DNA of 55,245 bases from an uncultured Bacteroidia bacterium (GTDB taxonomy: Bacteria; Bacteroidota; Bacteroidia; Bacteroidales; Prolixibacteraceae): positions 1 through 55,245 of the forward strand of contig CAILKW010000586.1 in NCBI GenBank assembly GCA_903834845.1, given 5' to 3'. Below are positions 14,561-49,113 of the stretch, piece by piece. Below the pieces are notes generated by a model. That model ran no database searches and was not told the DNA's origin. It was given only the letters and a program-made list of their open reading frames with translations. Position numbers and translations under genes: made by a program. Each line of letters begins with the position of its first letter. Position 1 is the first letter of the stretch.

Positions 14561-16843
14561 ATGAAATCATGGAAATATTTTTGCGCAAGCCTTCTCATAC
14601 CTGTTTTTTCGCTTATTTATATTGGATGCGATAAGTCAAAGATGAAACAAATGTCAGTTTCATCGTACAAAGGCATTTTTAAAAGTCCCCCCACGCATAT
14701 TCCAACAGGTAAGACGCCAGATGGACCGATTGCAGGTAATGGAGATGTTGGGATAGTATTCAGCGGAACTCCTGATTTGCAACGATTTTATTTCTCAAAA
14801 AATGACTTTTGGAAATCAAAACCAGGGTATCCGGATGGTGGTGTTTTTCTTCCTGGTGGTTTGGATATACGGGTCCAAGCAATGAAAGGAGCTTCCTATT
14901 ATGCCGAGCAAGTCCTTGAAAATGCTACCCTAAAGGTTGATTTCAAAACAGAGAATGCCGGCTATAAACTTGATTCGTGGGTAGCGGCATCTGATAATAT
15001 TGTTATTCTGCAATTCGCGTCTGAAAAGAAGACTTATGATGTAAACCTGAATCTTTGGTCTCAAACTGGAAATGGCTCAATTAATGAATCGGGGCAGGAT
15101 GGTGAGGTTTATTGGGTAACACGCAAATTTGAAACTCCAGATCTGAAATGGCCAACTCAAATCGCTATTGCCATGAAAGTTCTTGGAGGAGGCCTAAGGG
15201 ATTTTCAATTGAAACCATCAGAAAGAGTACAGGTAGCTATTAGTTTTTGTACTAATCATGACAATGACAATTATTTCCAGACTGCAGTGGCAAAGGTTAA
15301 AAACCTGACGTTACATTCAATAAAAACTTTACGGCAAGATCACGAAACATGGTGGAAGGAGTTTTGGTCACAGTCGATGATAAATATTGGGGATACCTTA
15401 ATTGAAAAATATTATTATGGTTCGCAGTATTTACTTGCTTGCTGTAGCAGGAACAAAAATTTTCCACCTGGGCTTTGGGGAAACTCCCTGACTGAAGACG
15501 CTTCTTTTACTAATTGGGTAGGCGACTATCACCTAAACTACAACCACCAATCGCCGTGGTGGGGTGTTTTTTCATCCAACCAGATAAAATTGGCTGATCC
15601 TTATGATACGCCAATCCTTGAATATATGCCAAATGCAAAAATATTTGCTAAGGAATTTTTAAAATGCAGAGGAGTATATTATCCGGTTGGGATTGGTCCG
15701 AAGGGTTTTTGCCCCGCTATGTTCCCGCTTACAGCCGCGAAAATGCAATTTTATTACAAAACTCCTGAAACAAATATTGAAAACGGCTATATGTTTCTCG
15801 GGCAAAAAAGCAACGCTATATTTGCTTCAGTTAATATGTTACTGAGGTATTATTACACTTACGACGCTGAATATGCAAAAAAGGTATATCCATTTCTTCG
15901 TGAAATTGCCGACTTCTGGGAAGACTACCTTAAATTTGAAAATGGGCGGTATGTAAGTTATAATGATAATGTTGGTGAGGTTGGTCCCTGGGAAGGAAAA
16001 GACTGGAAGAAAAATTATGGAGACATAAATCCTGTAGGAAGCATGGGATACCTCAGAATATTTTTCAAAGGGATTATCGAGATCAGCAATGATTTGAAAG
16101 TAGATGCAGACCGACAGGCAAAATGGAAGAATATTCTTGAAAATTTAAGTCCAATTCCTACCATAGAAGTGGCTGGTAGTATTAGGATTCACGGCAGCGA
16201 AGGAGGAAATGGTTCAGGAGGCCGAATGATCGGTGCCTCTCCCGGTACTATGTGGAGCTTATTATATCCATTACCCGCTTTCGACAGAAATATTGATACA
16301 ACCCTAATCAGAATTCTTCGGAATGAAGCTAACCTTTGGGATGAGAAACATTGGGATCATGCTCATTCAGGAGGATTTGAAATCATTTTCAGCTCTGCTG
16401 CCAGATTGGGAATGAATCCGGTATTTATTCTGGAAAAATTATCAAGCAGGTTAAAAAACGGCAGTTATCCTAATTTATGGGTTCCAAGCGGAGGTGGCGG
16501 AGTAGAAACACTTAATGCAGTACCTGCAGCTATTAATGAAATGCTTTTGCAAAGCTATGAAGGGATTATCAGGGTTTTCCCAAACTGGGTGAAAGAAAAA
16601 GATGCCAGTTACTCCACCTTACGGGCAATTGGAGCTTTTCTAATCAGTAGCAGTTTAAAGAGGGGGAAAGTTCAGTATATTAACGTATTAAGTGAAAAAG
16701 GCCGTACCTGCACTATTGAAAACCCGTGGGGTGATGTCAAGGTTTTATTGGAAAGAGATGGCCGGAAATCGGAAATCTTAACTGGAAAATTGATAAAATT
16801 TGAAACAAAACAAAACGAGAAGATCATAATAACGGTTATCTGA
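14561..16843 (+). CDS. DUF5703-like lipoprotein, putative GH95-related glycosidase (paralogue A)
   Basis: The 760-aa product has a lipoprotein signal (Cys23 in YIGC) and is probably outer-membrane anchored. I believe it belongs to the DUF5703 family, whose activity is unknown to me. Its architecture mirrors GH95. The N-terminal beta-sandwich motif PIAGNGDVGIV with NDFW (residues 56-84) corresponds to PIGNG-x-G-x-x-VFGG with (N)D-x-FW in GH95. The toroid begins near 280, with YLLACCSRN, then NYN at 326-328 in a YHLNYNHQ motif. The segment YNDNVGEVG holds Glu473, a candidate general acid. GGGGVETL with Glu649 lies 11 residues before EMLLQS (660), where GH95 has its key Asp. The gene ends 10 bp before a GH78 gene. 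Two more paralogues occur in this window (B and C). The glycosidase assignment is an inference; the substrate is unknown. Confidence 0.8.
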   Translation: MKSWKYFCASLLIPVFSLIYIGCDKSKMKQMSVSSYKGIFKSPPTHIPTGKTPDGPIAGNGDVGIVFSGTPDLQRFYFSKNDFWKSKPGYPDGGVFLPGGLDIRVQAMKGASYYAEQVLENATLKVDFKTENAGYKLDSWVAASDNIVILQFASEKKTYDVNLNLWSQTGNGSINESGQDGEVYWVTRKFETPDLKWPTQIAIAMKVLGGGLRDFQLKPSERVQVAISFCTNHDNDNYFQTAVAKVKNLTLHSIKTLRQDHETWWKEFWSQSMINIGDTLIEKYYYGSQYLLACCSRNKNFPPGLWGNSLTEDASFTNWVGDYHLNYNHQSPWWGVFSSNQIKLADPYDTPILEYMPNAKIFAKEFLKCRGVYYPVGIGPKGFCPAMFPLTAAKMQFYYKTPETNIENGYMFLGQKSNAIFASVNMLLRYYYTYDAEYAKKVYPFLREIADFWEDYLKFENGRYVSYNDNVGEVGPWEGKDWKKNYGDINPVGSMGYLRIFFKGIIEISNDLKVDADRQAKWKNILENLSPIPTIEVAGSIRIHGSEGGNGSGGRMIGASPGTMWSLLYPLPAFDRNIDTTLIRILRNEANLWDEKHWDHAHSGGFEIIFSSAARLGMNPVFILEKLSSRLKNGSYPNLWVPSGGGGVETLNAVPAAINEMLLQSYEGIIRVFPNWVKEKDASYSTLRAIGAFLISSSLKRGKVQYINVLSEKGRTCTIENPWGDVKVLLERDGRKSEILTGKLIKFETKQNEKIIITVI

Positions 16844-16853
16844 AAGAGGAAGG

Positions 16854-19800: not shown

Positions 19801-20105
19801 AGAAGATTATTATTAAGCCCAATTTAATCGGAGATTTACATTGGGTTAAAAGTTCTTATAAATCTATTTACGGTGAAATAATGAGTAGTTGGCAAAAACA
19901 CGGGAATCTATTAATAATGAGTATAAAAATTCCTTGTAACACAACAGCTACTGTTTACATTCCATGCAAAGAGGCTGCAAATATTACCGAGTCAGGAAAT
20001 CCTATTGATAAAGTTCAAGGTGTGAAGTTTATGCAAAAGGCTAATAATGTTGCTGTGTATTCTGTTCTTTCCGGAGCATATAACTTTCAGTCCGAACTAC
20101 CATAA
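16854..20105 (+). CDS. GH78-like alpha-L-rhamnosidase with N-terminal discoidin-type domain
   Basis: This exported 1083-aa protein should remove terminal alpha-L-rhamnose (the GH78 reaction, inverting). After a signal peptide (about 1-27) comes an F5/8-type C (discoidin/CBM32-like) domain at about 30-185. A fibronectin-like domain follows at about 205-312 (LRCENETNPIGIDVKNPRLSW, GARYWWKVKVF, typical of GH78). Then come a beta-sandwich with GW(Y)G motif and a carbohydrate-binding-like segment (FDFGRELSG). The six-hairpin toroid starts near 620, and a C-terminal beta-sandwich follows. The acid-motif region reads NDPTREWKVWTQD (Glu659), one residue shorter than the usual GH78 form. The site of the expected catalytic-base Glu reads KEMWHGG, with His951 where W-E is normal. 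It may therefore have altered specificity or activity. It starts 10 bp after paralogue A and is close to the next gene. Confidence 0.88.
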   Translation: MMIKTNLIPKVWIIGTFMLLNIVPVCGKEQRMNLAKGIFCKTFSSIESSEWSANKLTDGDKGGKGWSSKAFSLYPDHSLYPENVVIDLKTTYDIEKVILFPRGDDNMAGKGFPKNFTIEVCREGEKWKVVSQRINYPVLVNGKAQTFTLKNAKGRYFKIEATQLHSVDSGKYYFQLSEIEIFGKELNNPSSKIPKSSFQKDSNTVNNLRCENETNPIGIDVKNPRLSWWIISKERGVIQKAYQILVASSEAVLKKGEGDIWNSKRVEGENSTSVTYAGKPLQSGARYWWKVKVFSDCKNEFGWSFPAHFETGKMNQSDWEGKWIGANADTKHGAVYLRKEIDIGKQVKRAVVYFCGLGFSDLSIDGQKIGDYFLGPGFTTYNKRTYYLAFDVTKNFSNLGRKALAVTLVDGWYGLAKDPWVHKFEKNSYVDKPKLLLNLHIEYKDGTESNIVSDKSWKWSDGPITFSWIAQENIDLRKAHSGWDKAAFNDFNWNPVKEVNGPTGVLMHQKEPPCRIIDVIHPVSMIYDPVSSTYKFDFGRELSGVVRFRTKGANGNTITITTIPLDEKYSHNNHFILDGNKDYEIYEPRFFNIGIKQLAIKGVTLTPELEDISVLVISNSWEKAGSFSCSDDFVNFLEDIVRRTSAYYTTFLPNDPTREWKVWTQDIVTMFVPNTYLFDAQRMYERWQFDMVNDQREDGNVPNISPGGFFDDYNSPWWGGCVVWLPWNLFQYYGNELVLKESYPAMKLYVDYLTSVSKDGLQDWGLADWCPIEETPRPIINTAAHYYYAKIVSNTAKILGKSDDEKRYSDLASKIKKLFNEQFLDSLTGIYGKLGWTITPGYPSSVLNGVVPHKIWWSGNRVCTQAGQILPLALGLVPERQIPLVQKTLLSEIEAHSNHLSTGFCSTPYLVQLLADLAPEVGWKMTTIRDYPSWYSNTVGSDNYLMKEMWHGGQAFMPSLAGNIGGWIYQSLGGIRPNSPGFKKIIIKPNLIGDLHWVKSSYKSIYGEIMSSWQKHGNLLIMSIKIPCNTTATVYIPCKEAANITESGNPIDKVQGVKFMQKANNVAVYSVLSGAYNFQSELP

Positions 20106-20142
20106 AAAAATAATTTATGAGCTAATTGCAATTAAACCATTT

Positions 20143-22644
20143 ATGATTAAGAAAATAGAAATATTGCTTCTTTTTGTTATAGTTTATATTCAGATTTACG
20201 GTCAGAATTCAGATGTTCCAATGTTGAATTCATGCATGATTTGGGACGGTGGCACAATACTTCCCGATACTGTTCCTTTTCATCAGTCCTTTCCTGTTTC
20301 GGTTGGATTCCGTAAACAGTTCATTCTATCCGGCAAACCTGCCTCGTCTGTCCTGCATATATTTGCCGATTCACGATATCTCATTTGGATAAACGGGAAA
20401 TACGTGGCTCGTGGTCCGAATCGGTTCGATCCCCAAAGGGTGGAATATGATACTCACATCATTACAAGATGGCTCAAAGAAGGCAAAAATTCTATTTCGA
20501 TTCTTGTGCAGAGCGGTTTGTCGAATTACCGGTTTATCTATCACCAACCAGGCCTTGGAGTTTTGCTAAAAGTAAAGGATAAGAACGAGCAGTTTTTAGC
20601 GCAGTTTACAACCGATACCACTTGGCGATGCAGTTCCTCCACTCGGTTCGGAAAGCCTGTGGTTATGCTTAGCGGAATTACCGATCGAGTGGATGAGCAT
20701 CTTGAAAAGGCTGATTGGCTTGGGCCGGATTTCGATGATAAAGACTGGAAAATGCCAGTAAAAATCTCAGGAAAATATTGGGGAGGCTTTTGCAAAAGAA
20801 TGATACCGCTATTACGCGAAACTTTGGTTGTTGGCGCACAAATAATCAAAATCAAAAAGGGAAATTCTATTGACAGCACCGCTTACCCTGTTAGCGGATC
20901 TCTGCCTCTTGAGCTTACGGCTCCGGCCACCATCCTTATTGATATTGGACAAATGACACGTGCCTGGTTCGAGCTTGATTTTGAGTCAGGGATGGAATCT
21001 CGCGTTGAAATTCTTCCCCGGCAATCATTCACAAACCGTACTGCGGAATTTCTTGGAAGTTGCAGTTATCAAACAACTGCAAAGCTTGGCCGCAGGTCTT
21101 ATATCACCACCGATGATTATACCTGCCGTCTTGTTTACCTTCAACTTCACACCGGAAAAATTAAAATACATGGGCTGAAGATTGTCGAGAGGCGATATCC
21201 GTTCGACAGGGTAGGGAGCTTTCAGTGTAACGACAATTTTCTTAATCAACTCTGGGATATGTCGATGCGTACTTCTGAAGTCAATGCGAGTGATGGCTAT
21301 ATTGATGGTTCTGAGGGTGGGGAGTGGGTTACCGGATTGATAGACTATCCTGTAACAGAAGTCGCTTTTGCTGCACCTGACGAGCAAGGGGAGCCGATAT
21401 ACAGCGACATGCGGTTATTGGGTAATCAGATTTCGCGCATGGCACTGAGTCAGGAAGGGGATGAACTTATAAAAGGGTGGCATCCGTCAGACTGGCATCG
21501 CGGACCAAGAGATCAGGGAAGTGGAATTCATAATTTCATTGAGGACAGTTCTCCTTCATGGATAAATCTTTTGCGCATTTATTATGAGGGAACCGGCGAT
21601 CGCTCTCTGGTAGAAAGGGAGTGGCCGGTTTTGGAAAAAATATTGAAATGGTTTCTCGACAGGCGTACCAAACGTGGGTTGGTCAGTGCCCGGGAGTTTT
21701 ACCTTCATTTCGATAATCCTATTGCATTCCAAATTTGTGAAGGAGCAACACTTAATGCTTTTTTTTACGGAGCTTTAATTGACGCAGTCTGGCTGGCTGA
21801 TAAACTTGGCAAAAAGGATCGTGCTGAACAATACTCCAAAGCGGTTAAGGAACTTACCGAAGCGTATAACATGTATCTCTGGGATGAATTGGCGGGTACC
21901 TATTATGCGGGTTTAAAAAAAGGTGAAAAGTTACTTCTTACACCCTGGCCTCATGAACCGTGGAAGGCTTACTATGCTTTGATTGATCAAAGCAAGGAGT
22001 TCTTTCCGGCAACTGTTCAAGCTGCTGTTATGGCACTTAGCCGAGGTCTTGTACCGGAAAGCCGTATTGCATCAGTCAGGAAATACTTATTTGATCACCA
22101 TAATGAGTTTGTAAGTCCATTGTCCTACTTATACGCATTCAAGGCATTTTATCAGATGGATACGGATAGGGCGGACATGGAGGCGATCAAAACAATGCGA
22201 AAACGGTGGGCAGTTATGGTCGGGCGTAAAATGCCGGGAACGCTCGGTGAGCAGTTTGATGATAAAAGTTACTACTGTCATGACTTTGGTACTATTCCAT
22301 CTGCCTTCCTTAGCTCTTATGTTCTTGGTGTGAGGAGAGACGGTACGATCGAAAATAAAAGGATTCTTGTGGAGCCACGTCTGGGAGACCTAACAGAGGC
22401 AAAAGGAGTGGTTATAACACGTCATGGGCCAGTACCTGTCGAATATAAAAGACTGATCAACGGCGGACTCGAATTTCATATCAATGTTCCGCAAGGAGTG
22501 ACTGCAGCCTTTTCAATGCCAAAACCTTCAGACAAGCCAATTCTGATGATCGATGGAAAAACCCAGGTAAAAGCTAAACTATCAAGTCGGTTTTTAACTG
22601 TCGAACTCGGTTCTGGGGTTCACTCAGGTGTCATAGCACCCTGA
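20143..22644 (+). CDS. Second GH78-like rhamnosidase-type six-hairpin glycosidase, divergent
   Basis: The 833-aa product starts best at the ATG at 20143, because a longer open frame from 20047 would overlap the preceding gene by 59 bp and has no signal peptide. From 20143 a signal peptide ends at IYGQ (about residue 21). A GH78-type beta-sandwich region (about 60-130; ILSGKPASSVLHIFADSRYL, a sugar-binding-like fold) leads to the helical toroid beginning near 358 (SFQCNDNFLNQLWDMSMRT). The acid-motif region reads DGSEGGEWVTGLID (Glu391, Glu394) instead of D-C-P-x-R-(D/E)-E-R-x-G-W-T-G-D. The base region reads GTLGEQFDDKS with the following HDFGTIPSAFLSSYVLGV, which resembles GH78. The bases look richer in GC than in the genes on either side, an impression only. 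Rhamnosidase activity is plausible; a related specificity is also possible. Confidence 0.75.
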   Translation: MIKKIEILLLFVIVYIQIYGQNSDVPMLNSCMIWDGGTILPDTVPFHQSFPVSVGFRKQFILSGKPASSVLHIFADSRYLIWINGKYVARGPNRFDPQRVEYDTHIITRWLKEGKNSISILVQSGLSNYRFIYHQPGLGVLLKVKDKNEQFLAQFTTDTTWRCSSSTRFGKPVVMLSGITDRVDEHLEKADWLGPDFDDKDWKMPVKISGKYWGGFCKRMIPLLRETLVVGAQIIKIKKGNSIDSTAYPVSGSLPLELTAPATILIDIGQMTRAWFELDFESGMESRVEILPRQSFTNRTAEFLGSCSYQTTAKLGRRSYITTDDYTCRLVYLQLHTGKIKIHGLKIVERRYPFDRVGSFQCNDNFLNQLWDMSMRTSEVNASDGYIDGSEGGEWVTGLIDYPVTEVAFAAPDEQGEPIYSDMRLLGNQISRMALSQEGDELIKGWHPSDWHRGPRDQGSGIHNFIEDSSPSWINLLRIYYEGTGDRSLVEREWPVLEKILKWFLDRRTKRGLVSAREFYLHFDNPIAFQICEGATLNAFFYGALIDAVWLADKLGKKDRAEQYSKAVKELTEAYNMYLWDELAGTYYAGLKKGEKLLLTPWPHEPWKAYYALIDQSKEFFPATVQAAVMALSRGLVPESRIASVRKYLFDHHNEFVSPLSYLYAFKAFYQMDTDRADMEAIKTMRKRWAVMVGRKMPGTLGEQFDDKSYYCHDFGTIPSAFLSSYVLGVRRDGTIENKRILVEPRLGDLTEAKGVVITRHGPVPVEYKRLINGGLEFHINVPQGVTAAFSMPKPSDKPILMIDGKTQVKAKLSSRFLTVELGSGVHSGVIAP

Positions 22645-22750
22645 TTCCTTGAAATGATAATCTACATGTAAGAATACAATAAATTTTTCAATGTCTTAGT
22701 AATCACGAGAATAAATTTAAAAGTAACTTCAATTTTAATTATAAAGCACT

Positions 22751-25051
22751 ATGAAAAAATATCAAAGCTTTTTAACATTTCTTGTTGTCGCAATTACAAT
22801 CTGGATCTTTTCAGGCTGTACACCATCATCAAATAACCTGTATGTTTCGAAATACAAGGGTATTTTTACTTCACCACCTAAAAAAGTACCTACTCTTTTT
22901 ACTCCGGATGGTCCGATTGCCGGAAATGGAGATGTGGGAATTGTTTATGGCGGCTCTACGGAGAAACAATGCTTCTATTTTTCAAAAAACGATTTTTGGA
23001 AAGCAAAGCTTGGTTATGCTGACGGAGGTATATGTCTGCCAGGAGGATTGAACATTTCTGTTAAAGAGTTGAAAGGTGCTGATTATCATGTGGAACAAGG
23101 AATAGATTACGGAACCATCACTGCAAATTTCCAGAAAGGAAACCTGATTTGGAAGCTTAAATCGTGGGTATCCGCCACAGATAACCTTGTAGTTATAGAA
23201 CTTACTTCTGAAGGAGCTCCGTGCACGGTCAATCTTGATTTGTGGGTAAAGAAAGGTAACGAATCACGTGATGAATCAGGAATTAGGGATGGAATTTACT
23301 GGTTTACGCGCCATTTAGATGCTCCTGACTTAGTGTGGCCTAGTCATATCACAGCTGCAATGAAGATTCTTGGTGCTGACAGTAATTCTTTTGTACTCAA
23401 TCCATCGAAAAGTGTCAGGATACTAATTGGATTTTGCACTAATCACGACAGTGAGGATTATTTTAACATTGTAATGGGAAAAGTTAAATCAGTCACGGAA
23501 TCACAAATTACGAAGCTTTGGCAGGAACATGAAAAGTGGTGGGCAGGCTTTTGGTCCGAATCAAAGGTCGAAATAGGAGATACTCTTATCGAAAAGTATT
23601 ATTATGGATCTCATTACCTCCTTGCATCATGTAGCCGCAACATTAACTTTCCTCCAGGGCTCTGGGGCAATTCGATAACTGAGGATACGGGTTTTTCAAA
23701 CTGGGAAGGCGATTATCATTTAAATTATAATTTCCAAGCTCCATATTGGGGAGTTTATTCTTCAAACCATGTTGCGCTTTCCGATCCTTACGATGCGCCT
23801 ATCCTTGATTATATGAAAAGTGGGAAAAAACATGCTCTTGACCTCTTGAAATGCCGAGGAGTTTATTATCCTGTAGGGATAGGTCCGAAAGGATATTGTA
23901 CCTCGATGTTTCCACTTACTGCAGAAAAAATGAAGCGTGCTTATCGCACCGAAGAAATCGGCATTGAGGGAGGTTACATGTTCCTCGGACAGAAAAGTAA
24001 CGCTGTTTTCTGTACGGCAAACATGTTTATGCGTTTTTATACTACATACGATACTGCTTATGCATTAAAGGTTTACCCCTTTATCACTGAAGTTGCCAAC
24101 TTTTGGGAAGATTACCTGAAGTTCGAAAAGGGCAGGTATATAAGCTACGATGATTCTTTTTGGGAAGTTGGCCCATGGATGGGTAAAGATTGGAAGAAGG
24201 ATTACGGTGATATTAATCCTACCCTTTCGTTGGGAATGGTGCGGATGCTGTTTACAGGTATTCTGGATATGAGCAGCTTTTTAAATACTGACGAGGGTCG
24301 CAGGGTTAAATGGCAGCATATCCTTGATAATCTGAGCAAGATTCCCACAGTTGTAATAAACGGGGAAACCCGGATAGCCGCTTGCGAAGGAGGTACAGGA
24401 TCAGGCTCGCGCACAAAGCCTGGTTTTGGCCGTGTTATGATGCATGGGCTAACTTTTCCAACCGGTGTAACGGGAATCGAAATTGATTCAGCTTTTGCTT
24501 CGATTTTGCGCAAAGAGATCAGCCGCTGGGGTAAGGAACCGATGGGCGATGGAAACTGGAATATGCTTCAGGGATCCGAAACCTATTTTCCTTCGGCAGT
24601 CAGGCTGGGATATAATCCCGACACAATCCTGACAAGGCTGAAAAAAAGTATTTTAACAACAAAGACATCCAACTATTTTATTCCTCATGGAGGAGGCGGC
24701 ATCGAGATGCTTAGCCCCGTAACATCCTGTATCAACGAAATGCTGTTGCAGGGGTACGAAGGAGTCATTCGCGTTTTTCCAACATGGCCAATCAATAAAG
24801 ATGCAAAGTTTGAAAATTTAAGGACTTATGGAGCTTTCCTTATTTCATCTGAAATAAAAAACTCTTCAATTTCTTATGTTGAAATTACAAGCGAAAAAGG
24901 TCGAGAATGTAAATTGCTTCGTCCCTGGAAAAGCGGTAAAATTCAGATTAAATCTGAAGGTGGTTCTGGCACTTTACTATTCAAAGAAATAGATAATAGA
25001 ATTGTTTTTCAAACAGAAATCGGTAAAAAGTACATTGTCAAACCGGTATAG
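22751..25051 (+). CDS. DUF5703-like lipoprotein, putative GH95-related glycosidase (paralogue B)
   Basis: The 766-aa lipoprotein (Cys23 in FSGC) is clearly homologous to paralogue A along its whole length. It keeps PIAGNGDVGIV and NDFW (about 55-83), YYYGSHYLLASCSRN, NYN at 325-327, Glu472 in the DDSFWEVG segment, and Glu652, 11 residues before EMLLQG at 663. These are the same positions inferred as catalytic in A and C. It differs in the C-terminal barrel-like segment between 545 and 610, which may set the substrate choice. It stands 106 bp after the second GH78 gene and before the beta-helix gene. Two lipoprotein paralogues in one locus suggest different linkages in one glycan. The function is inferred, not known. 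Confidence 0.8.
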   Translation: MKKYQSFLTFLVVAITIWIFSGCTPSSNNLYVSKYKGIFTSPPKKVPTLFTPDGPIAGNGDVGIVYGGSTEKQCFYFSKNDFWKAKLGYADGGICLPGGLNISVKELKGADYHVEQGIDYGTITANFQKGNLIWKLKSWVSATDNLVVIELTSEGAPCTVNLDLWVKKGNESRDESGIRDGIYWFTRHLDAPDLVWPSHITAAMKILGADSNSFVLNPSKSVRILIGFCTNHDSEDYFNIVMGKVKSVTESQITKLWQEHEKWWAGFWSESKVEIGDTLIEKYYYGSHYLLASCSRNINFPPGLWGNSITEDTGFSNWEGDYHLNYNFQAPYWGVYSSNHVALSDPYDAPILDYMKSGKKHALDLLKCRGVYYPVGIGPKGYCTSMFPLTAEKMKRAYRTEEIGIEGGYMFLGQKSNAVFCTANMFMRFYTTYDTAYALKVYPFITEVANFWEDYLKFEKGRYISYDDSFWEVGPWMGKDWKKDYGDINPTLSLGMVRMLFTGILDMSSFLNTDEGRRVKWQHILDNLSKIPTVVINGETRIAACEGGTGSGSRTKPGFGRVMMHGLTFPTGVTGIEIDSAFASILRKEISRWGKEPMGDGNWNMLQGSETYFPSAVRLGYNPDTILTRLKKSILTTKTSNYFIPHGGGGIEMLSPVTSCINEMLLQGYEGVIRVFPTWPINKDAKFENLRTYGAFLISSEIKNSSISYVEITSEKGRECKLLRPWKSGKIQIKSEGGSGTLLFKEIDNRIVFQTEIGKKYIVKPV

Positions 25052-25054
25052 GTA

Positions 25055-25062
25055 TATTTTTG
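25055..25062 (+). promoter_or_regulatory. Candidate internal -7 box before the beta-helix gene
   Basis: TATTTTTG lies 4 nt after the stop of paralogue B and 87 nt before the preferred start at 25149. An ATTG at 25034-25037 sits 17 nt upstream, slightly closer than the usual -33 spacing. Weak evidence. Confidence 0.25.
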
Positions 25063-25148
25063 TATTTTATTGAATAAAATTGCCATTGTTAATAAAAACA
25101 TACGAAAGGCAAATTAAATATTTACATTTAAACCTCAATTATAGAACA

Positions 25149-27390: not shown

Positions 27391-29823
27391 ATGAAAAAAC
27401 TATTCTTTTTCTTAATTGCAATTTACTTGATTTACCCCATTTACGCTGGTGAATTTTCAAAGGCAGAGGTTCGTGTCGGTTCTGACAAAGCAAATCCGGA
27501 TTATTCTCCATCAACAATCATGTGGATGAATCTACCAGCCAAAACATGGAATGAAGCTACACCAATTGGCAATGGAAGTCTGGGGGGTATGGTATTTGGA
27601 GGTACTTCAAACGAAAGGATACAGATTAATGATGACACATTCTGGTCTGGCCTACCACGGGATGTACAGAATCCGGCGGCGGCTCAATATTTACCTGAAA
27701 TAAGGAAATTAATTTTTGATGACAAAACCAAAGAAGCACAAAAGTTAATAGACTCTAAATTACTCGGACCCTATAATGAATGTTATATGCCTCTGGCAGA
27801 TATTCTTTTAGAAATAAATGACAGTCTTAATATCAGGAATTACCGCAGAGAATTGGATTTAAGCAAAGGGGTTGTTACCATTACATATTCACAAAAAGGG
27901 GTCAATTTTAAAAGGGTAATATTTGCATCATATCCCGATCAAACAATTGCAATAAATCTCACAGCCGATAAACCAAATGCGATTAATCTATCAGCCACCT
28001 TAGTCAGCACTGTAAAATATAACACAACAGTTGAGAATAATCAGGTAATCATTGACGGACAAGCACCAAGTCATGCGGAACCACATTATCAGGGGAAACA
28101 TGAACCCATTTATGATGAACGTGGCGGCATTCGATTTGAAGGACGGCTTTTGGTTAATAATGATGGTGGCAAGCTGACTCAATTAGGCAGTAAAATTGTT
28201 GTTAAAGGTTCTACTTCATTAACATTATTATTTGCTGCCGCTACCAGCTTTAATGGTTATAATAAAAACCCTGTTACGGATGGAAAAAATGAGAAGGCAA
28301 TTTGTTCTCAAAAAATCAATAATTTAGTATCAAAAGAATATAAAAATTTATATACTAATCACATAAAGGATTATTCGGAGTTATTCGGCAGGTTAAGCAT
28401 TGATTTGGGGAACTCCCCGGAATCATCAATGGCTTTAAATGAACGTGTACAGAATTACAAAAAAGGCTTAGATCCCTCACTAACCGCCCTATATTTCCAA
28501 TTTGGCCGTTACCTTCTAATCTCTTCATCGCGTCAGGGTACTCAGCCTGCCAATTTGCAGGGTATATGGAACAAGGATATGCAACCGGCGTGGAGTTCTA
28601 ACTACACACTAAATTGTAATGCCCAGATCAATTATTGGCCGGTTGAATCTGCAAATCTCTCGGAATGTCATCTGCCATTGATTGATATGATCAGAGAAGC
28701 GAGTGTTGACGGAGCAAAAACCGCAAAGAATCTCTATGGCGCAAGGGGTTGGATGGCGCATCATAACTTAGATATCTGGAGAACTACCTGGCCTGTTGGA
28801 GGTACAAACGGTACAGGTTTATGGGCAATATTTCAGGTGGGAGGAGCTTGGTTATGTCAGCATATCTGGGAGCATTACACTTATACACTGGATAAAAAAT
28901 TTCTGATGGATAATTACCCTTTATTAAAAGGAGCTACACAATTCTATTTAGATAATCTGCAAAAGGACAGGAAAGGATATTTGGTGACCAATCCTTCTGA
29001 ATCGTTCGAAAATCAATATATAAAGCCAAATGGAGAGAAAGGCTGGGTTTGCATGGGGTCAGCTCAGGATATGCAGATTATCCGTGCTCTTTTTGAAAAT
29101 ACGATGAAAGCTGCCGATATTCTTGGCGGAGATGATGCTTTTAAAACAGAGGTTGAGAAGAGCTATAATAAGTTAGCTCCTATGAAAATCAGTCTTAAAA
29201 CCGGTCGTTTACAGGAATGGAATGATGATTGGGAACCGGCAGATCCAAAAACTGATCAGATTGGGCATAGCTGGGGTTTTGTGGCAGGCAATTTAATTAC
29301 CCTCCGCAGAACACCTGAATTAGCTAAGGCATTCCGGAGAACGCTCGAGTATCATCATCTTGGGACTATTGATAATTATTGTAGCTGGCCGGCAGCATTT
29401 GCGAGCATGGATTGGGCAAGATTTGAAGAAGGAGATAGTCTTCAATGTATAATTGACCAACATTTTATTACTGCTCTTTCACCTAATCTGACTTCATATT
29501 GTAAAACTATGGATATGCGGGTTTGGCAAATAGATGGAAACCTGGGAGTTACCTCTGCCATTGCCGAAATGCTGCTGCAAAGTCATGCAGGAGAAATTAA
29601 TTTACTACCTGCTTTGCCTTCAAAATACCCAAATGGTTCAGTAAATGGACTCCGTGCAAGAGGAGCTTGTTCTATAAATATCGATTGGAAAGCAGGAACA
29701 CTTGTTAAAGCACAAATTACCTCTGACAAAGGTGGGTCTTTTACGATTCGATACAAAGAAAAAACCAAACAGGTAAAATTGAAATCCGGTGAATCAATTA
29801 TATTTAGCAGCTCACTCGAATAA
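27391..29823 (+). CDS. GH95 alpha-L-fucosidase (or alpha-L-galactosidase)
   Basis: This exported 810-aa inverting glycosidase should cut terminal alpha-1,2-linked L-fucose; some GH95 members prefer alpha-L-galactose. It has an N-terminal signal peptide (about 1-19). The GH95 beta-sandwich opens with TPIGNGSLGGMVFGG and DDTFWSG (residues 57-87), and a helical linker precedes the toroid (about 360-720). The catalytic set is complete by comparison with characterised GH95: Asn408 and Asn410 in LNCNAQINYWP, Glu540 in NPSESFENQY, and Asp in QIDGNLGVTS followed by EMLLQSHAG. It follows the beta-helix gene by 37 bp. A second, different GH95 (44161-46584) is present. It was used here as the template for reading the DUF5703-like proteins. 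Confidence 0.93.
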   Translation: MKKLFFFLIAIYLIYPIYAGEFSKAEVRVGSDKANPDYSPSTIMWMNLPAKTWNEATPIGNGSLGGMVFGGTSNERIQINDDTFWSGLPRDVQNPAAAQYLPEIRKLIFDDKTKEAQKLIDSKLLGPYNECYMPLADILLEINDSLNIRNYRRELDLSKGVVTITYSQKGVNFKRVIFASYPDQTIAINLTADKPNAINLSATLVSTVKYNTTVENNQVIIDGQAPSHAEPHYQGKHEPIYDERGGIRFEGRLLVNNDGGKLTQLGSKIVVKGSTSLTLLFAAATSFNGYNKNPVTDGKNEKAICSQKINNLVSKEYKNLYTNHIKDYSELFGRLSIDLGNSPESSMALNERVQNYKKGLDPSLTALYFQFGRYLLISSSRQGTQPANLQGIWNKDMQPAWSSNYTLNCNAQINYWPVESANLSECHLPLIDMIREASVDGAKTAKNLYGARGWMAHHNLDIWRTTWPVGGTNGTGLWAIFQVGGAWLCQHIWEHYTYTLDKKFLMDNYPLLKGATQFYLDNLQKDRKGYLVTNPSESFENQYIKPNGEKGWVCMGSAQDMQIIRALFENTMKAADILGGDDAFKTEVEKSYNKLAPMKISLKTGRLQEWNDDWEPADPKTDQIGHSWGFVAGNLITLRRTPELAKAFRRTLEYHHLGTIDNYCSWPAAFASMDWARFEEGDSLQCIIDQHFITALSPNLTSYCKTMDMRVWQIDGNLGVTSAIAEMLLQSHAGEINLLPALPSKYPNGSVNGLRARGACSINIDWKAGTLVKAQITSDKGGSFTIRYKEKTKQVKLKSGESIIFSSSLE

Positions 29824-36765: not shown

Positions 36766-36790
36766 TCAAAAACCTAAAAAGTTGAAATAT

Positions 36791-38782
36791 ATGCAACATT
36801 TCAGATTATTACATCAATTTAATTTTTATACAGCACTTTTGATTTTTGCAGTATTCCTTTCGGGATGTGATTCATCAACAACGGAGGTCATGTCAGGTTC
36901 TTCTGCTTCAACCCAACTTACTATTACGGTGAATAAGGATTCAGCACAAATAACAAAACTTGGTTGGGACACCGAAGGAACCGGACGCGACAGCATCAAC
37001 TTGATCAAATCGCCTATTCAGTTATATTTGAGTAAAGGGAGTCAGGTCTTGACTCCAATGGTAACATCCAAAATGGTTGATAAACAAACTATTCAATTTA
37101 ATTTCTCATTGTCAAATAAAAAACAATTTCTCTGGGAAATAGGCGTAAGTGCAGGGGTGCTAAGCATGAAAATACTAAGTGAGGCAGATATAACTGCCGA
37201 AATAGACAAAATAGAATTGATATTTCCCTTTGATTCAAAAAAAACTTTAACCTCTATTATCAGTAGCAATTGGACAAAAGATGGTATGTTTCAGTTACCT
37301 GTTATCATGAGTGCCCCTGATATTGGTCAAATGTTGCTTAATAGTGGCGAAAATCAAAATATAAGCGGTTACACAGATGGAAGCAGAGCCGAAGGTTGGG
37401 TTAAGGTAAGAATTGAATTACCCGTTCCGGATCATAAATCATTTGCTAATTTGATCTTTACTCCTGTTATATTGCCGATTCCAAAAGGTTACTCAGATGA
37501 AAAGCGTTGGGAAGCAGTCCGAAGAGGATGGTTCAATCAGATTCAACAGAGTTGCGGAGCTTCCGGCGGGGGTAAGGCGGTTGTAGGAGTGTGGGCAAAT
37601 AACGTACTTAGCGATCCTGTAAGCAGTTTGCTATATCTCTTGGGTGATGCCACCATTTTAGTGCCTGAATTAGCCCCCGGTGTTAGCATGCCTCCTATAT
37701 TGCTGCGTGCAATAGAGTATTTCATGGATCAAAAGACAACTGATTATGGTATGGTTGGCTATACGGCTGGCGGTACTCCTGCTGCCGAATATGACAAAGG
37801 AGATCCTGATCCTAATGATAAAACCTACAATCCAGGCAAACATCAGACAGTGATGGATAGTAACCCTTCGGTCATTATCGGGGCATGGGCCTATGTTAAA
37901 GTCTCACTTGATACAATTTGGCTCAGAAAACGAATTGAAGAGTTGGAATTTATTGCTCAATATATGGAGAACCGCGATGTTGATAATGACGGACTGATAG
38001 AGTCAAGACAGAGCGGGAACGATGGGTCAAGGTTACATCGAAATCCAGACATGGCCTGGGATTGCTACTCTGCAGGACATAAAAATGCTTACATTAATGT
38101 ATTAGTTTATAGGGCATTTAATAATTTGGCTGATCTGGAAAAGCAACTGGGTAAAAATAATCAGGAAAAGAAATACCGTCAAAGAGCAGAAAGACTACGA
38201 GCCGCTTTTCTTAAAAACTTTTATAATCCGCAAACTGGTTGGCTCGGTTGGTGGCGAAGTAAAGATGGAAAACTTCATGATATTTACTCCGATATACCAA
38301 CAAGTCTTGCAATTGCTAATGGAATTATAACTAAGGATGAGGGCAAAGAGATGTTAAAAAAATATTGGAAGGCGTTGGAAGCGACAGGGTTCAACCACTT
38401 CGATTTGGGAGTTCCCGTGTGTCTTCGTCCGGTTCAACGTCAGGAAATGGAACATTATACTGAGTTTCAGCAATTCCTAAATGGAGGTTGCTGCGTGATC
38501 AATACTACCTATACTCTTGATGCTCTTTATACAGTAGGAATGACACAACAAGCTGATATGATTCTGGATGCCATGCTTAAACGACAGTGCCAGGGTGTTT
38601 TTCCAAATGGTGGCGGATTTCAGAATGGTTTTGTTGACAGCATGGGTTTCGGTGCCGAGGTGTTTGACTGGAATGGAAAAGCCGCAGGATATGAAGGACA
38701 CTTAGTTTATTGTTGGAGCTTTTTACATTCACTTTTGCGCAGAGAACCTGCCCTGCGAGATCGAAATTTAAACCCTATTTGA
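36791..38782 (+). CDS. Lipoprotein paralogue of the 702-aa protein, putative glycosidase (unassigned family, copy 2)
   Basis: The ATG at 36791 is preferred over the TTG at 36782. It gives a signal peptide with a lipobox ending LSGC (Cys26) and about 663 aa. The body shares motifs in order with copy 1: LGWDTEGTGRDS near the start, NNVLSDP, ENRDVDNDGLIESRQSGNDG, GHKNAYINVLVYRAF, FLKNFYNPQTGWLGWW and FDLGVP. It differs in its anchor (lipoprotein, against free secretion in copy 1) and in the loop after NNVLSDP. It follows the sulfatase by 25 bp. The high conservation of the DVDxDG(M/L)IES and GHKN segments between the two copies marks likely active-site loops. The function is unknown. Confidence 0.6.
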   Translation: MQHFRLLHQFNFYTALLIFAVFLSGCDSSTTEVMSGSSASTQLTITVNKDSAQITKLGWDTEGTGRDSINLIKSPIQLYLSKGSQVLTPMVTSKMVDKQTIQFNFSLSNKKQFLWEIGVSAGVLSMKILSEADITAEIDKIELIFPFDSKKTLTSIISSNWTKDGMFQLPVIMSAPDIGQMLLNSGENQNISGYTDGSRAEGWVKVRIELPVPDHKSFANLIFTPVILPIPKGYSDEKRWEAVRRGWFNQIQQSCGASGGGKAVVGVWANNVLSDPVSSLLYLLGDATILVPELAPGVSMPPILLRAIEYFMDQKTTDYGMVGYTAGGTPAAEYDKGDPDPNDKTYNPGKHQTVMDSNPSVIIGAWAYVKVSLDTIWLRKRIEELEFIAQYMENRDVDNDGLIESRQSGNDGSRLHRNPDMAWDCYSAGHKNAYINVLVYRAFNNLADLEKQLGKNNQEKKYRQRAERLRAAFLKNFYNPQTGWLGWWRSKDGKLHDIYSDIPTSLAIANGIITKDEGKEMLKKYWKALEATGFNHFDLGVPVCLRPVQRQEMEHYTEFQQFLNGGCCVINTTYTLDALYTVGMTQQADMILDAMLKRQCQGVFPNGGGFQNGFVDSMGFGAEVFDWNGKAAGYEGHLVYCWSFLHSLLRREPALRDRNLNPI

Positions 38783-38822
38783 TATTCTGATTACAAAAAA
38801 AGAAGTAAACAAAACAAATCGT

Positions 38823-40172: not shown

Positions 40173-40182
40173 CGATTTGTTG

Positions 40183-40190
40183 TAAATTTG
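40183..40190 (+). promoter_or_regulatory. Candidate internal -7 box
   Basis: TAAATTTG fits TAnnTTTG and lies 55 nt before the 752-aa gene at 40246, in the 73-bp gap after the GH29 stop. No spaced -33 TTTG is seen. Weak. Confidence 0.25.
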
Positions 40191-40245
40191 GACAGCATTA
40201 TTATTATACAATCTTTAATAGTCTATTTAATTAATAGTTAATTTT

Positions 40246-42504: not shown

Positions 42505-42531
42505 ACTTAGTTAATATTAATAGGATAAGTT

Positions 42532-44109: not shown

Positions 44110-44160
44110 TTTTGAATTTTTTTATTTACAATTAAGTTTATAAAACCTGAGAGTTAGATT

Positions 44161-46584
44161 ATGAAAAAGTTATCTGTTCTTTTTTTATTTGTGTTCGTTA
44201 CAATAATGATTCTGAATGCCCGGAGCGAACAACCAGTTCTTAAACTTTGGTACAAACAAGCGGCTGACGAATGGATGAAATCAACGCCAATCGGAAATGG
44301 GCGCTTGGGAGCAATGATTTTCGGAGGCATCAATAACGATAGAATTGCATTAAATGAAATTACCATGTGGGCGGGGCAACCCGATCCAAATCAGGAATTG
44401 CCCTGTGGTAAAGAAAAATTGGCTGAGATTCGCAAACTGTTTTTTGATGGGAATATCGAAGAAGGAAACAAATTGGCTATTAAATACCTATCCGGAAAAC
44501 CTAATACTTTTGGTACTCATATTCCTGTTGGAGATTTAAAGCTGAACTTCAACTATGATGAAACCAATGTATCATCCTACAAGCGTGAATTAGATCTTGA
44601 AACAGCCATTACAACTGTATCATTCAAAATTGGTCAGGCAAGTTTTCAAAGAGAGTATTTTTGCTCAAACCCTGATAATGTATTGGTTGTCAGATTAAAA
44701 TCCGATAAGAAGAAGTCTGTTTCTTTTAGTTTATCGTTAGACTTGCTCAGTAAGGCAGGTATCACTGCAACACAAAACCAAATAGAATTCACCGGTAAAG
44801 CAACATCAACTTTAAAAGTAAATGGCTTCCCGAATTTCGGTGATGGAGGCGTTGATTTCATGGGAAAAGTTAATGTTTCAACTAAAGGAGGAAGCATCGA
44901 AACAGGCAATGGGATATTAAAGATTATTGAAGCCGACGAAGCAGTCATACTGATTGATATCCGTACAAGTCTTAATAATCCTGGTTTTAAGGAAATATGT
45001 GAAACCACTGTTAAAAAGGCAGCATTAAAAAAGTTTGATGAAATTAAGGCAGCTCATTTATCCGATCATGCTAAACTTTTTAGCAGGGTTGTAGTTAGTT
45101 TTGGTACCAATAGGGAAGCAGAAAGTTTGCCGACAGACGAGCGTTTTGAACGGTATAAAACGGGGAAAGAAGACCCGAATATGCCTGCTTTGTTCATGCA
45201 ATACGGCAGATATTTGCTAATGTCATCCTCACGCGAAAATTCTCCGCTTCCCGCTAATTTACAAGGTTTATGGAACGATAACCTTGCGGCAAATATGCCA
45301 TGGACATGTGATTACCATTTGGACATCAACACTCAACAAAATTATTGGCCGACTAATATCACAAATTTGGCCGAATGTAATATTCCATTATTTAATTTTG
45401 TGGAGTATTTGGCAAAGTTTGGTGAGAAAACAGCGATGAAAGTGTATGGAAGTTCAGGCTGGGTAGCACATACAGTTACAAATGTTTGGGGATATACAGC
45501 TCCGGGTGAATGGCCTGGCTGGGGCTTATTTCCTACAGCAGGCACATGGATAGCATCACATCTGTGGGAACATTATTTATTTACAAAAGATATTCATTTT
45601 CTTCGAAACAAGGCTTATCCGATATTGAAAAAAAATGCTGAATTTTTCATTGATTACATGACAGTAAATCCTGCCAATGGTTATCTGATGACGGGACCCA
45701 GTACATCACCGGAAAATTCCTTTTCGTATAAAGGCAAAATATTATCTCTCTCAATGATGCCAACATGCGACAGAGTATTTGTATATGAGCTATTTACAGC
45801 GTGTATTACATCCTCAAAAATATTAGGTTGCGATCGGGATTTCTGTAATATTCTTGAAATTGGGTTAGGAAAATTACCTCCAATCAAAGTCGGAAAAAAA
45901 GGAACTATTCAGGAATGGTTTGAAGATTATGACATTCCATATCCGAATCACAGACACACAACTCATTTAACATCCCTTTATCCTTTCTCACAAATATCTC
46001 TTGAAAAGACACCTGAGCTGGCAAAGGCAGCTAAAAAGACGATAGATGATAAACTAACTTCAAAAGGTTGGGAGGATGTTGAATGGAGTAGGGCAAATAT
46101 GATCAACTTTTATGCACGTTTGAAACAGCCGGAACTTGCCTATAACAGTGTATTTTCTTTGTTGAAAAATTTAACGAGAGAAAATTTATTTACAATTTCA
46201 GTTGCAGGTATTGCAGGAGCCAAGTTAGATATTTTTGTAATGGATGGCAATTCTGCAGGGACTTCAGGAATTGCCGAAATGTTGGTACAAAGCCATGAAG
46301 GTTATATTGAATTCCTTCCTGCATTACCATCCGAGTGGAAAACTGGATATTATAAAGGATTATGTGTAAGAGACGGTGCTATAACAGATGTCAGATGGGA
46401 AAATGGAAAAGTTATGAAAGCATCGCTAAAGGCCAATATACCTAATACATACAGGATTAAAATTCCTGATATATCTAAGGCTAAATTTCTAAAAAATGGA
46501 AAAGCATTTAATATTGAATTAATGAAAGGTGATATTGCAAGTATAAATTTGAAAACAAATGAAATATTGGATATACAATATTGA
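44161..46584 (+). CDS. Second GH95-family glycosidase (alpha-L-fucosidase-like)
   Basis: The 807-aa exported protein has a signal peptide (about 1-20). The GH95 opening STPIGNGRLGAMIFGG (41-56) with LNEITMW follows, and then a toroid beginning near 345. Glu518 in GPSTSPENSF is the expected general acid and the Asp in VMDGNSAGTSGIAEMLVQS matches the known Asp. The N-x-N motif reads LDIN (Asp388, Asn390), whereas the first GH95 here has LNCN; an Asp at the first position also occurs in other GH95 proteins as I recall, and may go with altered specificity (for example alpha-L-galactose). The similarity to the other GH95 is moderate, so they probably serve different linkages. It follows GH51 by 51 bp and is followed by the third DUF5703-like gene. 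Confidence 0.93.
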   Translation: MKKLSVLFLFVFVTIMILNARSEQPVLKLWYKQAADEWMKSTPIGNGRLGAMIFGGINNDRIALNEITMWAGQPDPNQELPCGKEKLAEIRKLFFDGNIEEGNKLAIKYLSGKPNTFGTHIPVGDLKLNFNYDETNVSSYKRELDLETAITTVSFKIGQASFQREYFCSNPDNVLVVRLKSDKKKSVSFSLSLDLLSKAGITATQNQIEFTGKATSTLKVNGFPNFGDGGVDFMGKVNVSTKGGSIETGNGILKIIEADEAVILIDIRTSLNNPGFKEICETTVKKAALKKFDEIKAAHLSDHAKLFSRVVVSFGTNREAESLPTDERFERYKTGKEDPNMPALFMQYGRYLLMSSSRENSPLPANLQGLWNDNLAANMPWTCDYHLDINTQQNYWPTNITNLAECNIPLFNFVEYLAKFGEKTAMKVYGSSGWVAHTVTNVWGYTAPGEWPGWGLFPTAGTWIASHLWEHYLFTKDIHFLRNKAYPILKKNAEFFIDYMTVNPANGYLMTGPSTSPENSFSYKGKILSLSMMPTCDRVFVYELFTACITSSKILGCDRDFCNILEIGLGKLPPIKVGKKGTIQEWFEDYDIPYPNHRHTTHLTSLYPFSQISLEKTPELAKAAKKTIDDKLTSKGWEDVEWSRANMINFYARLKQPELAYNSVFSLLKNLTRENLFTISVAGIAGAKLDIFVMDGNSAGTSGIAEMLVQSHEGYIEFLPALPSEWKTGYYKGLCVRDGAITDVRWENGKVMKASLKANIPNTYRIKIPDISKAKFLKNGKAFNIELMKGDIASINLKTNEILDIQY

Positions 46585-46623
46585 AAATTAAGAATTTAAT
46601 TTTAATCTAATTACTGAATATAA

Positions 46624-49113
46624 ATGAATCTTAGTAAAGCAGTTAAAGTCAATTCCCGTAGGGAATTTTTCAAAAAAGCAACTTTTACAGGACTGGGAAC
46701 AATAATTCTTCCTGATTTCCTAATGCCGCCTAACCTAACCGGAAAAGATAAGCCGGAAGTGACAGATTCTAATCGTATCAATAAAAGCAAAGTAATTGTA
46801 AAAACTGATGAGCAGTTTTCCGAAGATGGACGATTCAAAGCTACTTTTACCCAACCACCTCATCTTGTTCCTACGCGAAAGGTAGTTGATGGTCCAATAA
46901 TCGGAAACGGTGATGTTGGCGTAGTTTTAAGCGGTCCACCTGATAAACTGCGGTTGTGGATTTCAAAGAACGATTTTTGGAAAGCAAAACCTGTTTATCC
47001 TAACTCAGGCCCACGTCCGATAGGTGGTATCGAGATTGATATCCCCGCACTCCAAGACGGCAGCTATCATGTGGAGCAGATGCTCGAAAATGGAACCCTG
47101 GTTGGTCGTTTCACAACATCAATTGGAGTGGTTGACAGACAAGGTGATGCGCCCCCTTTTACTAAAGCAAGCACTACTATTATATTCAGATCTTGGGTTG
47201 ACACTTCGGCAAACCTGCTGATTGTGGAACTATCCGTTGAAGGTAAACCCGGGAAAGGTGATCTAATGTCGAGAGTGTTTCCAGGGGAAACCACAGCAGT
47301 TGGAGTTGATGTGCGGCTATGGGCACACACAGGTGATGAGTCGGAAACTTCGAGTGGTAATATAGCCGATGGATATTGGATAAAACGTAAATTCAACACT
47401 CCGGAAGCATCTATTTCCATTGAAAAAAAACCTTTGGTAATGAAGTCTGAGGCTGCTATTGCTATGCGACTGTTAAATCATCGGCAATTGCCGCTTCCCT
47501 GGAGCCGGGGGGATGGATGGTCGGGTGACCGATTTATCATTGCTCCGGGTCACCCTGTAACCATTGTTGCAGCAATTGTTACCAATGAAGAATCAGAGAA
47601 TCCACTAAAAGCTGCCATAGATGAGATCAGAAATATTGGGATAGCAAATCTTATTGAACGCCGGACTAACCATGAAATATGGTGGCGTGAGTTCTGGTCG
47701 AAATCGTCTATTGAAATCGGTGATCCTTTAATTGAAAAGTTCTGGTATGGTTCGCATTATATCATGGCTTGTTGTAGCCGGAATAAAAAATTTCCACCTG
47801 GTCTTTTTGGGAACTGGACCACATCCGATAACCCTTCATGGGAGGCCGACTACCATTTAAACTATAATCATGAGGCTCCCTGGTGGGGTACATATTCATC
47901 AAACCATATAGAACTATCTGAACCTTATGATGTTCCTATTTTGGAATATCTTCCGGTTGCAAAGGAGAATGCACGAAAATACCTCAATACCGGTGGCGTT
48001 TATTACGATGTAGGTATAGGGCCCAAGGGTTTGGAAACAACTTTTATGCCAGATGGGTATTCCATCCCTGGTGAAGGTAACCGCCAGTTTTTAGGCCAGA
48101 AAAGCAATGCTGTATTTGCAACTGTCAACATGCTGATGAGATTTTACTGTACTTATGACCTCGACTATGCGCAATATGTCTATTCTTTTCTTATTGAAGT
48201 GGCCAATTTCTGGGAAAATTATCTTATATTCGAAGACAATCGTTATGTCATTACCGGCGATGCCATTGGTGAAGTAGGTGATGGTGGCAGCGACAAGAAT
48301 AACTGTCTGTCGCTTGGCTTGGTTAAAATGTTTTTCAAAGGAATAATTGATGTGAGCAGTGAACTTGGCATGGATAAGGGTAGGCGCGACAAATGGAGGC
48401 ATATCCTTAGCCATATTAGTGATTTTCCTACCGTTGAAGTAAATGGGATTCGGCGAATAAGGGGTGCTGAAGCAGGACCAGGCTCAAAGCGTATAGGCCC
48501 AAATCGAGGTGATACACGTATAGAATTTCAGGGACTCGTCTGGCCATCGGGTGTAATTGGTCTTGGTTCAGATCCCGCATTTTTGAAAGTGTTGCAGGAT
48601 GATGTAAAAGGATGGCCTGACCGGGAGTGGTTTCATCACTACAATGGATTTAATACAACCTTTCCTGCTGCAGTGCGCGTGGGACACGACCCAAATGACA
48701 TTTTGACAAAGCTTAAGAAGGAATTGAACATCTCGGGACTACCGAATCTTTGGGTCTTTGGCGGTGGCGGTGGTATTGAAAACTGCTCTGGAGTACCAGC
48801 TACAATTAACGAAATGTTGATGCAGAGCCATGAAGGGGTACTGCGGCTGTTCCCGGTATGGCCTGAAAATATAGATGCAAAATTTGAAAATCTGAGAGCT
48901 TACGGCGCGTTTCTGGTGTCATCAACAAAAAAGAATGGTAATGTGGAATTTGTAACGATATTGAGCGAAAAAGGGAAAAAATGTAGCGTAGAAAATCCCT
49001 GGCTTGGAAAAACGATTCAAATCATCCGCCAAAACGGGAAAGTGGAAAAAGCTGACGGGAAAAGGTTTACAATAAAAACAGGGATCGGCGAAAAAATAAC
49101 CCTGACAGTTTGA
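46624..49113 (+). CDS. DUF5703-like protein with Tat signal, putative GH95-related glycosidase (paralogue C)
   Basis: The 829-aa protein starts with a twin-arginine motif (SRREFFKKA, residues 11-19) and a hydrophobic stretch (TGLGTIILPDFL), so it is probably exported folded by Tat, unlike the lipoproteins A and B. The body is homologous: PIIGNGDVGVV and NDFW (91-119), WYGSHYIMACCSRN, NYN at 413-415, Glu550 in GDAIGEVG, and Glu719, 11 residues before EMLMQS (730). It carries an insertion near 165-225 (GDAPPFTKASTTIIFRS) absent from A and B. A metal or cofactor requirement could explain Tat export, but no metal motif is clear. It lies 39 bp after the second GH95 gene. Its activity is unknown; the catalytic reading is inferred. 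Confidence 0.8.
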   Translation: MNLSKAVKVNSRREFFKKATFTGLGTIILPDFLMPPNLTGKDKPEVTDSNRINKSKVIVKTDEQFSEDGRFKATFTQPPHLVPTRKVVDGPIIGNGDVGVVLSGPPDKLRLWISKNDFWKAKPVYPNSGPRPIGGIEIDIPALQDGSYHVEQMLENGTLVGRFTTSIGVVDRQGDAPPFTKASTTIIFRSWVDTSANLLIVELSVEGKPGKGDLMSRVFPGETTAVGVDVRLWAHTGDESETSSGNIADGYWIKRKFNTPEASISIEKKPLVMKSEAAIAMRLLNHRQLPLPWSRGDGWSGDRFIIAPGHPVTIVAAIVTNEESENPLKAAIDEIRNIGIANLIERRTNHEIWWREFWSKSSIEIGDPLIEKFWYGSHYIMACCSRNKKFPPGLFGNWTTSDNPSWEADYHLNYNHEAPWWGTYSSNHIELSEPYDVPILEYLPVAKENARKYLNTGGVYYDVGIGPKGLETTFMPDGYSIPGEGNRQFLGQKSNAVFATVNMLMRFYCTYDLDYAQYVYSFLIEVANFWENYLIFEDNRYVITGDAIGEVGDGGSDKNNCLSLGLVKMFFKGIIDVSSELGMDKGRRDKWRHILSHISDFPTVEVNGIRRIRGAEAGPGSKRIGPNRGDTRIEFQGLVWPSGVIGLGSDPAFLKVLQDDVKGWPDREWFHHYNGFNTTFPAAVRVGHDPNDILTKLKKELNISGLPNLWVFGGGGGIENCSGVPATINEMLMQSHEGVLRLFPVWPENIDAKFENLRAYGAFLVSSTKKNGNVEFVTILSEKGKKCSVENPWLGKTIQIIRQNGKVEKADGKRFTIKTGIGEKITLTV

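Follow-up and report, generated by a model that had tools for sequence, protein, structure and literature searches.

Among described enzymes, the systems closest to the proteins considered here are the glycoside hydrolase families GH95 and GH139. GH95 is represented by the structures of AfcA (2EAB-2EAE), FucOB (7ZNZ), BACOVA_03438 (4UFC), Xac1774 (7KMQ) and 2RDY, and GH139 by those of BT0984 (9HYQ) and SDT91673.1 (9HMB); the GH65 phosphorylases and hydrolases (4KTP, 1H54 and 7FE3) have the same general fold but are more distant matches. The residue roles used below are drawn from published work on AfcA, FucOB, BACOVA_03438 and BT0984 (PMC10063614, PMC4491172, PMC10154630, PMC12282258). In GH95, the roles of N421, N423, E566 and D766 (AfcA numbering) come from mutants of AfcA and FucOB, as given in PMC10063614. 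A His/Thr switch (H419/T370) is described as not decisive in PMC4491172; in AfcA, the C6 methyl group of fucose is accommodated by H419. For GH139, PMC12282258 identifies the solved DUF5703 proteins as GH139 enzymes, assigns roles from E561 and N412 mutants of BT0984, and describes an adjacent Gln-Asn pair, Q411-N412, together with a conserved Asp, D723. A catalytic base that is an amide side chain is unusual.

The window, by which we mean the whole stretch of 55,245 nucleotides that was analysed, is a Bacteroidota-type polysaccharide-utilisation cluster (PUL) with SusC/SusD pairs and genes for ECF sigma factors and FecR, from an assembly of 8.2 Mb in 851 contigs with 6.09% contamination. Its other enzyme genes encode GH78, GH78-like, GH141-like, GH29, GH97 and GH2 enzymes, a sulfatase, an arabinofuranosidase-type enzyme and two canonical GH95 enzymes, the latter on the plus strand at 27391-29823 and 44161-46584 (Pfam GH95_cat, 470.9 and 494.6 bits). 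The proteins at 20047-22644, 33063-35171 and 36782-38782 are distant six-hairpin proteins (GH78-like or MGH1-like) with modest Pfam matches. The three open reading frames under study lie exactly where the original prediction had placed them, all on the plus strand: the first copy (P0001, 760 aa) at 14561-16843, the second (P0002, 766 aa) at 22751-25051 with a lipoprotein signal pattern at its start, and the third (P0003, 829 aa) at 46624-49113, which is of a Verrucomicrobiota-type lineage and has a twin-arginine-like leader recognised by pattern only. We use 'family X' as a working name for the clade that holds them. Judging from sequence, a predicted model and analogy, we propose with a probability of about 0.7 that the three proteins are exported, exo-acting, inverting glycoside hydrolases of family X that would use a GH95-type mechanism.

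Homology to GH95 was evident at the profile level. In the profile-profile comparison that had been suggested as a check, and which we ran with hhalign, family X matched GH95 with E = 6.2e-38 over 647 columns; the match is not a chance one, because a control alignment of two window GH78-type proteins and two relatives reached a probability of only 0.2% (E = 0.29). Family X and GH139 matched at 2.8e-28, and GH95 and GH139 at 2.4e-21. Pfam GH95_cat was found in the three copies at 81.5, 74.6 and 72 bits (cut-off 27) and in 34/34 members, whereas DUF5703_N scored 27.8 bits, 22.6 bits and no match in the three copies (cut-off 26.7) and was a weak match at E <= 0.001 in 18/34. Searched against NCBIfam, the three copies had no match at E <= 0.1, and 4 of the 34 members matched a kojibiose hydrolase weakly. 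AlphaFold2, supplied with a 34-row alignment, returned a model (pLDDT 88.8, pTM 0.90) in which the first copy would comprise N-terminal beta, (alpha/alpha)6 and C-terminal beta domains, the likeness to GH95 thus extending to a predicted three-domain fold; the active-site loops are weaker, with block pLDDT values of 64 (321-330), 78 (471-480) and 75 (641-650). The proposed structure comparison was carried out as a Foldseek search of this predicted model rather than as a superposition, and GH95 crystal structures ranked first (2RDY, E 5.2e-37, TM 0.76), followed by GH139 (9HYQ, 7.5e-27, TM 0.67) and then GH65, from E 5.7e-24. The best 15 chains had a query-normalised TM of 0.71-0.76 and the fold N-terminal beta/(alpha/alpha)6 toroid/C-terminal beta, and the sequences of the ten PDB entries behind them match the canonical GH95 proteins of the window at E <= 1e-77 (2eac being counted under the 2eab sequence). 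Hence the name 'DUF5703-like', under which the three proteins had been introduced, is a weak one, because they are nearer GH95 by Pfam, hhalign and fold.

The motif order that the original prediction had seen in both groups held for the most part. PI(x)GNGx(V/L)G is present in 5/5 proteins (the three paralogues and the two GH95), and in 5/5 the residue that precedes EM(L)xQ by exactly 11 positions is a carboxylate, Glu in the paralogues and Asp in the two GH95. The YL(L/I)-type CSR stretch deviates in the third protein, which reads YIMACCSR, and N-x-N is found in all three paralogues, whereas the second GH95 (44161-46584) reads LDIN, that is, Asp-x-Asn. All residue numbers that had been claimed proved exact in a motif search. 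In the first copy these are N326-Y327-N328 (codons 15536-15544), the predicted general acid E473 (15977-15979) and E649 (16505-16507); in the second copy N325-Y-N327 (23723-23731), the predicted general acid E472 (24164-24166) and E652 (24704-24706); and in the third copy N413-Y-N415 (47860-47868), the predicted general acid E550 (48271-48273) and E719 (48778-48780), all on the plus strand. The canonical GH95 at 27391-29823 has Thr at the AfcA H419 position and lacks HRHxSHL, and the one at 44161-46584 has His at that position and an HRHTTHL motif; both lack His at the H760 position.

To place these residues on known active sites, we used HMMER to align crystal-structure sequences to a 34-member profile and counted AfcA numbering by hand (the index in chain 2EAB is the published number + 1, and that in FucOB 7ZO0 runs six behind). 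N326/N328 fell on N421/N423 and E649 on D766 of AfcA, and W319, H324, N326, N328 and E649 fell on W378, H383, N385, N387 and D699 of FucOB, with W319/H324 corresponding to W414/H419 of AfcA. For E473, hhalign against GH95 needed a one-residue gap to set it on the acid Glu (AfcA E566), and hhalign against GH139 aligned N328 with N412 and E473 with E561 of BT0984 with no gap at E561. The ungapped HMMER alignment to 2RDY left E473 one residue away from the acid Glu, and in a 96-row MAFFT alignment the E473 column held the acid Glu in 37/37 GH95 and 6/6 GH139 rows. W598 was set by hhalign on the GH95 stacking Trp, which is invariant in a nine-row GH95 alignment; this pairing comes from hhalign only, most GH95 rows of the MAFFT alignment having a gap there.

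Conservation was then read from homologues. Scanning genome contigs yielded 38 loci, 35 of them with an ORF scoring >700 bits to the three-copy profile, and the others with two ORF fragments (L089), a partial match (L093) or another lineage (L095). In the 38 ORFs formed by these 35 and the window's three, N326 and E473 are kept in 38/38, N328 in 37/38 and E649 in 37/37, one row being truncated before E649. Removal of a fusion (L062), a near copy of L083 (L084) and a truncated ORF (L088), and addition of five from relatives' genomes (eight matches outside the source genome, three partial ones left out), gave a 40-row set in which W319, H324, N326, E473, W598 and E649 are present in 40/40 and N328 in 39/40. 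D469 and N490 are also kept in all 40 rows, and E473 is therefore not marked out by its invariance alone. These counts, with the profile alignments, support the earlier proposal of a divergent glycosidase family with the catalytic constellation of GH95. N-Y-N is read in 39 of the 40 rows and N-H-S in one, a Flavobacterium granuli protein (L065, 9914-12232) with DYHTNHS, in which the proposed base Asn is Ser and whose gene is immediately followed by one for GH95. Members range from Parabacteroides to Paenibacillus and Verrucomicrobiota; by record title they cover at least seven phyla (Bacteroidota, Verrucomicrobiota, Planctomycetota, Lentisphaerota, Bacillota, Acidobacteriota and Candidatus Poribacteria), many being metagenome bins whose individual phylum labels may be wrong. 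Among the source genome and 40 relatives, 9/41 had matches, source included. A phylum-wide search of the best two candidates per genome found a match in 1/395 genomes, the source only, a figure that is not a prevalence, the same search having missed one of the source's own three copies.

The position of AfcA D766, 11 residues before the last-helix Glu, separates the groups: it is Glu in 40/40 family X rows, Asp in 37/37 rows of the GH95 clade, and, at the same spacing in GH139, Asn in 4/6 and Asp in 2/6, the Asn matching N729 of PMC12282258. The supposed 'Asp to Glu shift' is thus right in that Glu stands at the GH95 Asp position, but its direction does not follow, because Glu is found in most sister lineages too. 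It is present in the orphan lineages L101, L152, L153, L100, L155 and L095_8678, 4/6 of which have HRHxSHL. L101/L152/L153 and L100/L155/L095_8678 represent two additional branches within the GH95 superfamily, beside GH95 on trees, a placement with a support of 95 in a 69-row tree but only 31 in a 96-row tree. In a further orphan lineage with long inserts (L097 3355-5838, L149 and L154), Glu precedes the conserved Glu near the last helix by ten residues instead of eleven; the rows L061_1225, L097_3355, L149 and L154, with this Glu one column off, were scored as Glu by hand. On the tree, D/E requires one change when GH139 is left out (a count that omitted seven rows, six GH139 and L096_14139) and two changes with GH139, and D/E/N requires three. 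For these sequences a change from Asp to Glu is therefore no more than a possible direction. Asp, Glu and Asn at one position, with the Asn pair kept, make a natural set for testing amide activation.

Other parts of the pocket differ as well. HRHxSHL, which holds AfcA H678, is usual but not universal in GH95 (30/37) and occurs in 0/40 of family X, and His at the AfcA H760 position is found in 23/37 GH95 and in 1/40 of family X, the second window copy. At the H419 switch position, family X has His in 40/40, the fucose-type state, whereas GH95 has His in 17/37 and Thr in 20/37.

These data bear on whether the three proteins are simply divergent members of GH95, that is, alpha-L-fucosidases or alpha-L-galactosidases to be counted within that known family, which we regard as unlikely but still quite credible. 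The GH95_cat scores lie above the cut-off, the catalytic constellation is identical in kind, GH95 rows themselves vary at the pocket His, and BLASTP (effective search space 1e11, E <= 1e-5) connected 40/40 family X members to a GH95 row (best 2.8e-24) and 19/40 to a GH139 row, so that a curator could still lump family X with GH95. Against this, family X, GH95 and GH139 are three separate clades in trees of 69 and 96 rows, with SH-aLRT values of 100 and 99 for family X and with GH95 closed at 100; the GH95 sample came mostly from the source genome and its order, and in the 96-row tree the GH95 group was chosen by Asp at the 766 position, its monophyly (100) being the result. Identity is 28.8-90.8% within family X, 14.2-22.3% between family X and GH95 and 13.3-20.4% between family X and GH139, and GH139, classified separately by CAZy, has 11.9-18.7% to GH95. 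The lack of HRHxSHL and the Glu in place of Asp766 point the same way. Family X is probably sister to GH95 and GH139. That the proteins are GH139-like (DUF5703) 2-O-methyl-fucosidases seems scarcely probable: the DUF5703_N, hhalign and BLASTP links just given are in its favour, but GH139 has the adjacent Q411-N412 (PMC12282258) in place of N-Y-N, the Asp at the D723 position is kept in 6/6 GH139 rows and in only 2/40 of family X (L118 and L119; 0/3 window copies), and both fold and profile set family X closer to GH95. DUF5703/GH139 was rejected as the home family on residues and fold rank.

Within the preferred reading of family X as GH95-type hydrolases, the general acid might have moved and be D469 rather than E473. 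D469 is as invariant as E473, and the ungapped HMMER register sets E473 one residue off, but E473 falls on the acid Glu both in the 96-row MAFFT alignment and in hhalign with either GH95 (one gap) or GH139 (no gap), and we consider a moved acid improbable. Still more so would be proteins that retain only the fold and are non-catalytic or phosphorolytic like GH65. GH65 structures do match the predicted model, and a GH139 protein without the acid was inactive on the substrates tested, according to PMC12282258; however, the constellation in family X is near-totally conserved across phyla, and GH65 ranks behind both GH95 and GH139.

Taking family X as GH95-type hydrolases, we infer the chemistry from the roles of the aligned residues in GH95. 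The reaction would be a single displacement with inversion: E473 would protonate the leaving glycosidic oxygen, N328, aided by N326, would hold and activate the attacking water, and E649, in the place of Asp766, would polarise the N326/N328 pair. The cluster would then remove the sugars concerned alongside its GH95, GH29, GH78, GH141-like and sulfatase enzymes. As to the substrate, our guess is an alpha-L-linked 6-deoxy sugar which on its ring-oxygen side is unlike plain terminal fucose, such as rhamnose or a substituted or sulfated fucose. We make this guess because W319/H324 are kept, HRHxSHL is absent and His at the H760 position occurs in one member only; the absent HRH motif suggests that the sugar may be held differently than in AfcA. 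The step is weak, since these His residues are variable within GH95 too. A stronger reading, in which family X is a separate, undescribed family with a third solution at the D766 position (Asp in GH95, Glu in family X, mostly Asn in GH139) and releases an alpha-L-6-deoxy sugar foreign to known GH95, for example O4-substituted or sulfated fucose, or rhamnose, is tentative and in our view falls somewhat short of even odds. Literature searches, for which most subscription journals were outside coverage, found no paper on family X and no assay of any member. A substrate would give a function to many proteins that Pfam names GH95 and that are perhaps read as fucosidases by default.

The original prediction had also described the family as amplified in this locus, and this did not hold. 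The second copy has 53% and the third 46% identity to the first, and the third has 61-62% to its nearest sequence, a Verrucomicrobiota one, and joins Verrucomicrobiota and Poribacteria rows on the tree. Forcing the three copies into one clade (42 rows) cost 375.7 log-likelihood units (p-AU 4.5e-33), and forcing the first two together cost 24.2 (p-AU 0.0155, quick tree). Local amplification was ruled out by these constrained-tree tests, and separate acquisition of the copies fits best. The GC content of the third copy is 43.3% compared with 38.7% for the window, which taken alone is a weak sign of acquisition.

Gene neighbourhoods elsewhere were surveyed as observations with no control set, Pfam scans covering 20 proteins that were either neighbours or fused. 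In three Parabacteroides loci (L059-L061), the family X gene is downstream of SusC/SusD; 3/3 are flanked by a GH97 homologue, and L060 also has GH20; in Flavobacterium granuli it is beside GH29 homologues, GH20, GH95 and GH2. In the five Paenibacillaceae members there is no evident leader. In L070 family X comes after a permease and a sugar-type solute-binding protein and before a GH38 gene, and GH38 is also near family X in L075 and L094. The lack of a leader together with the permease and solute-binding neighbours points to exo-action on imported oligosaccharides in Paenibacillaceae. In a Chitinophagales bin (L062, 9773-14956), family X and a GH2 enzyme are joined in one ORF of 1728 aa, a fusion that might reflect stepwise cleavage of the same side chain.

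Two other genes of the window are recorded here. A 957-aa protein at 30187-33060 has a weak C-terminal match to xylose-isomerase-like TIM barrels, and its homologue in a Cyclobacteriaceae bin (L091, 4076-7003; 1053 bits) sits immediately upstream of a gene of family X. A URO-D family protein (51082-52152) adjoins a sodium:solute symporter at the cluster's end; corrinoid methyltransferases also belong to the URO-D family, and such an activity would suit methylated sugars.
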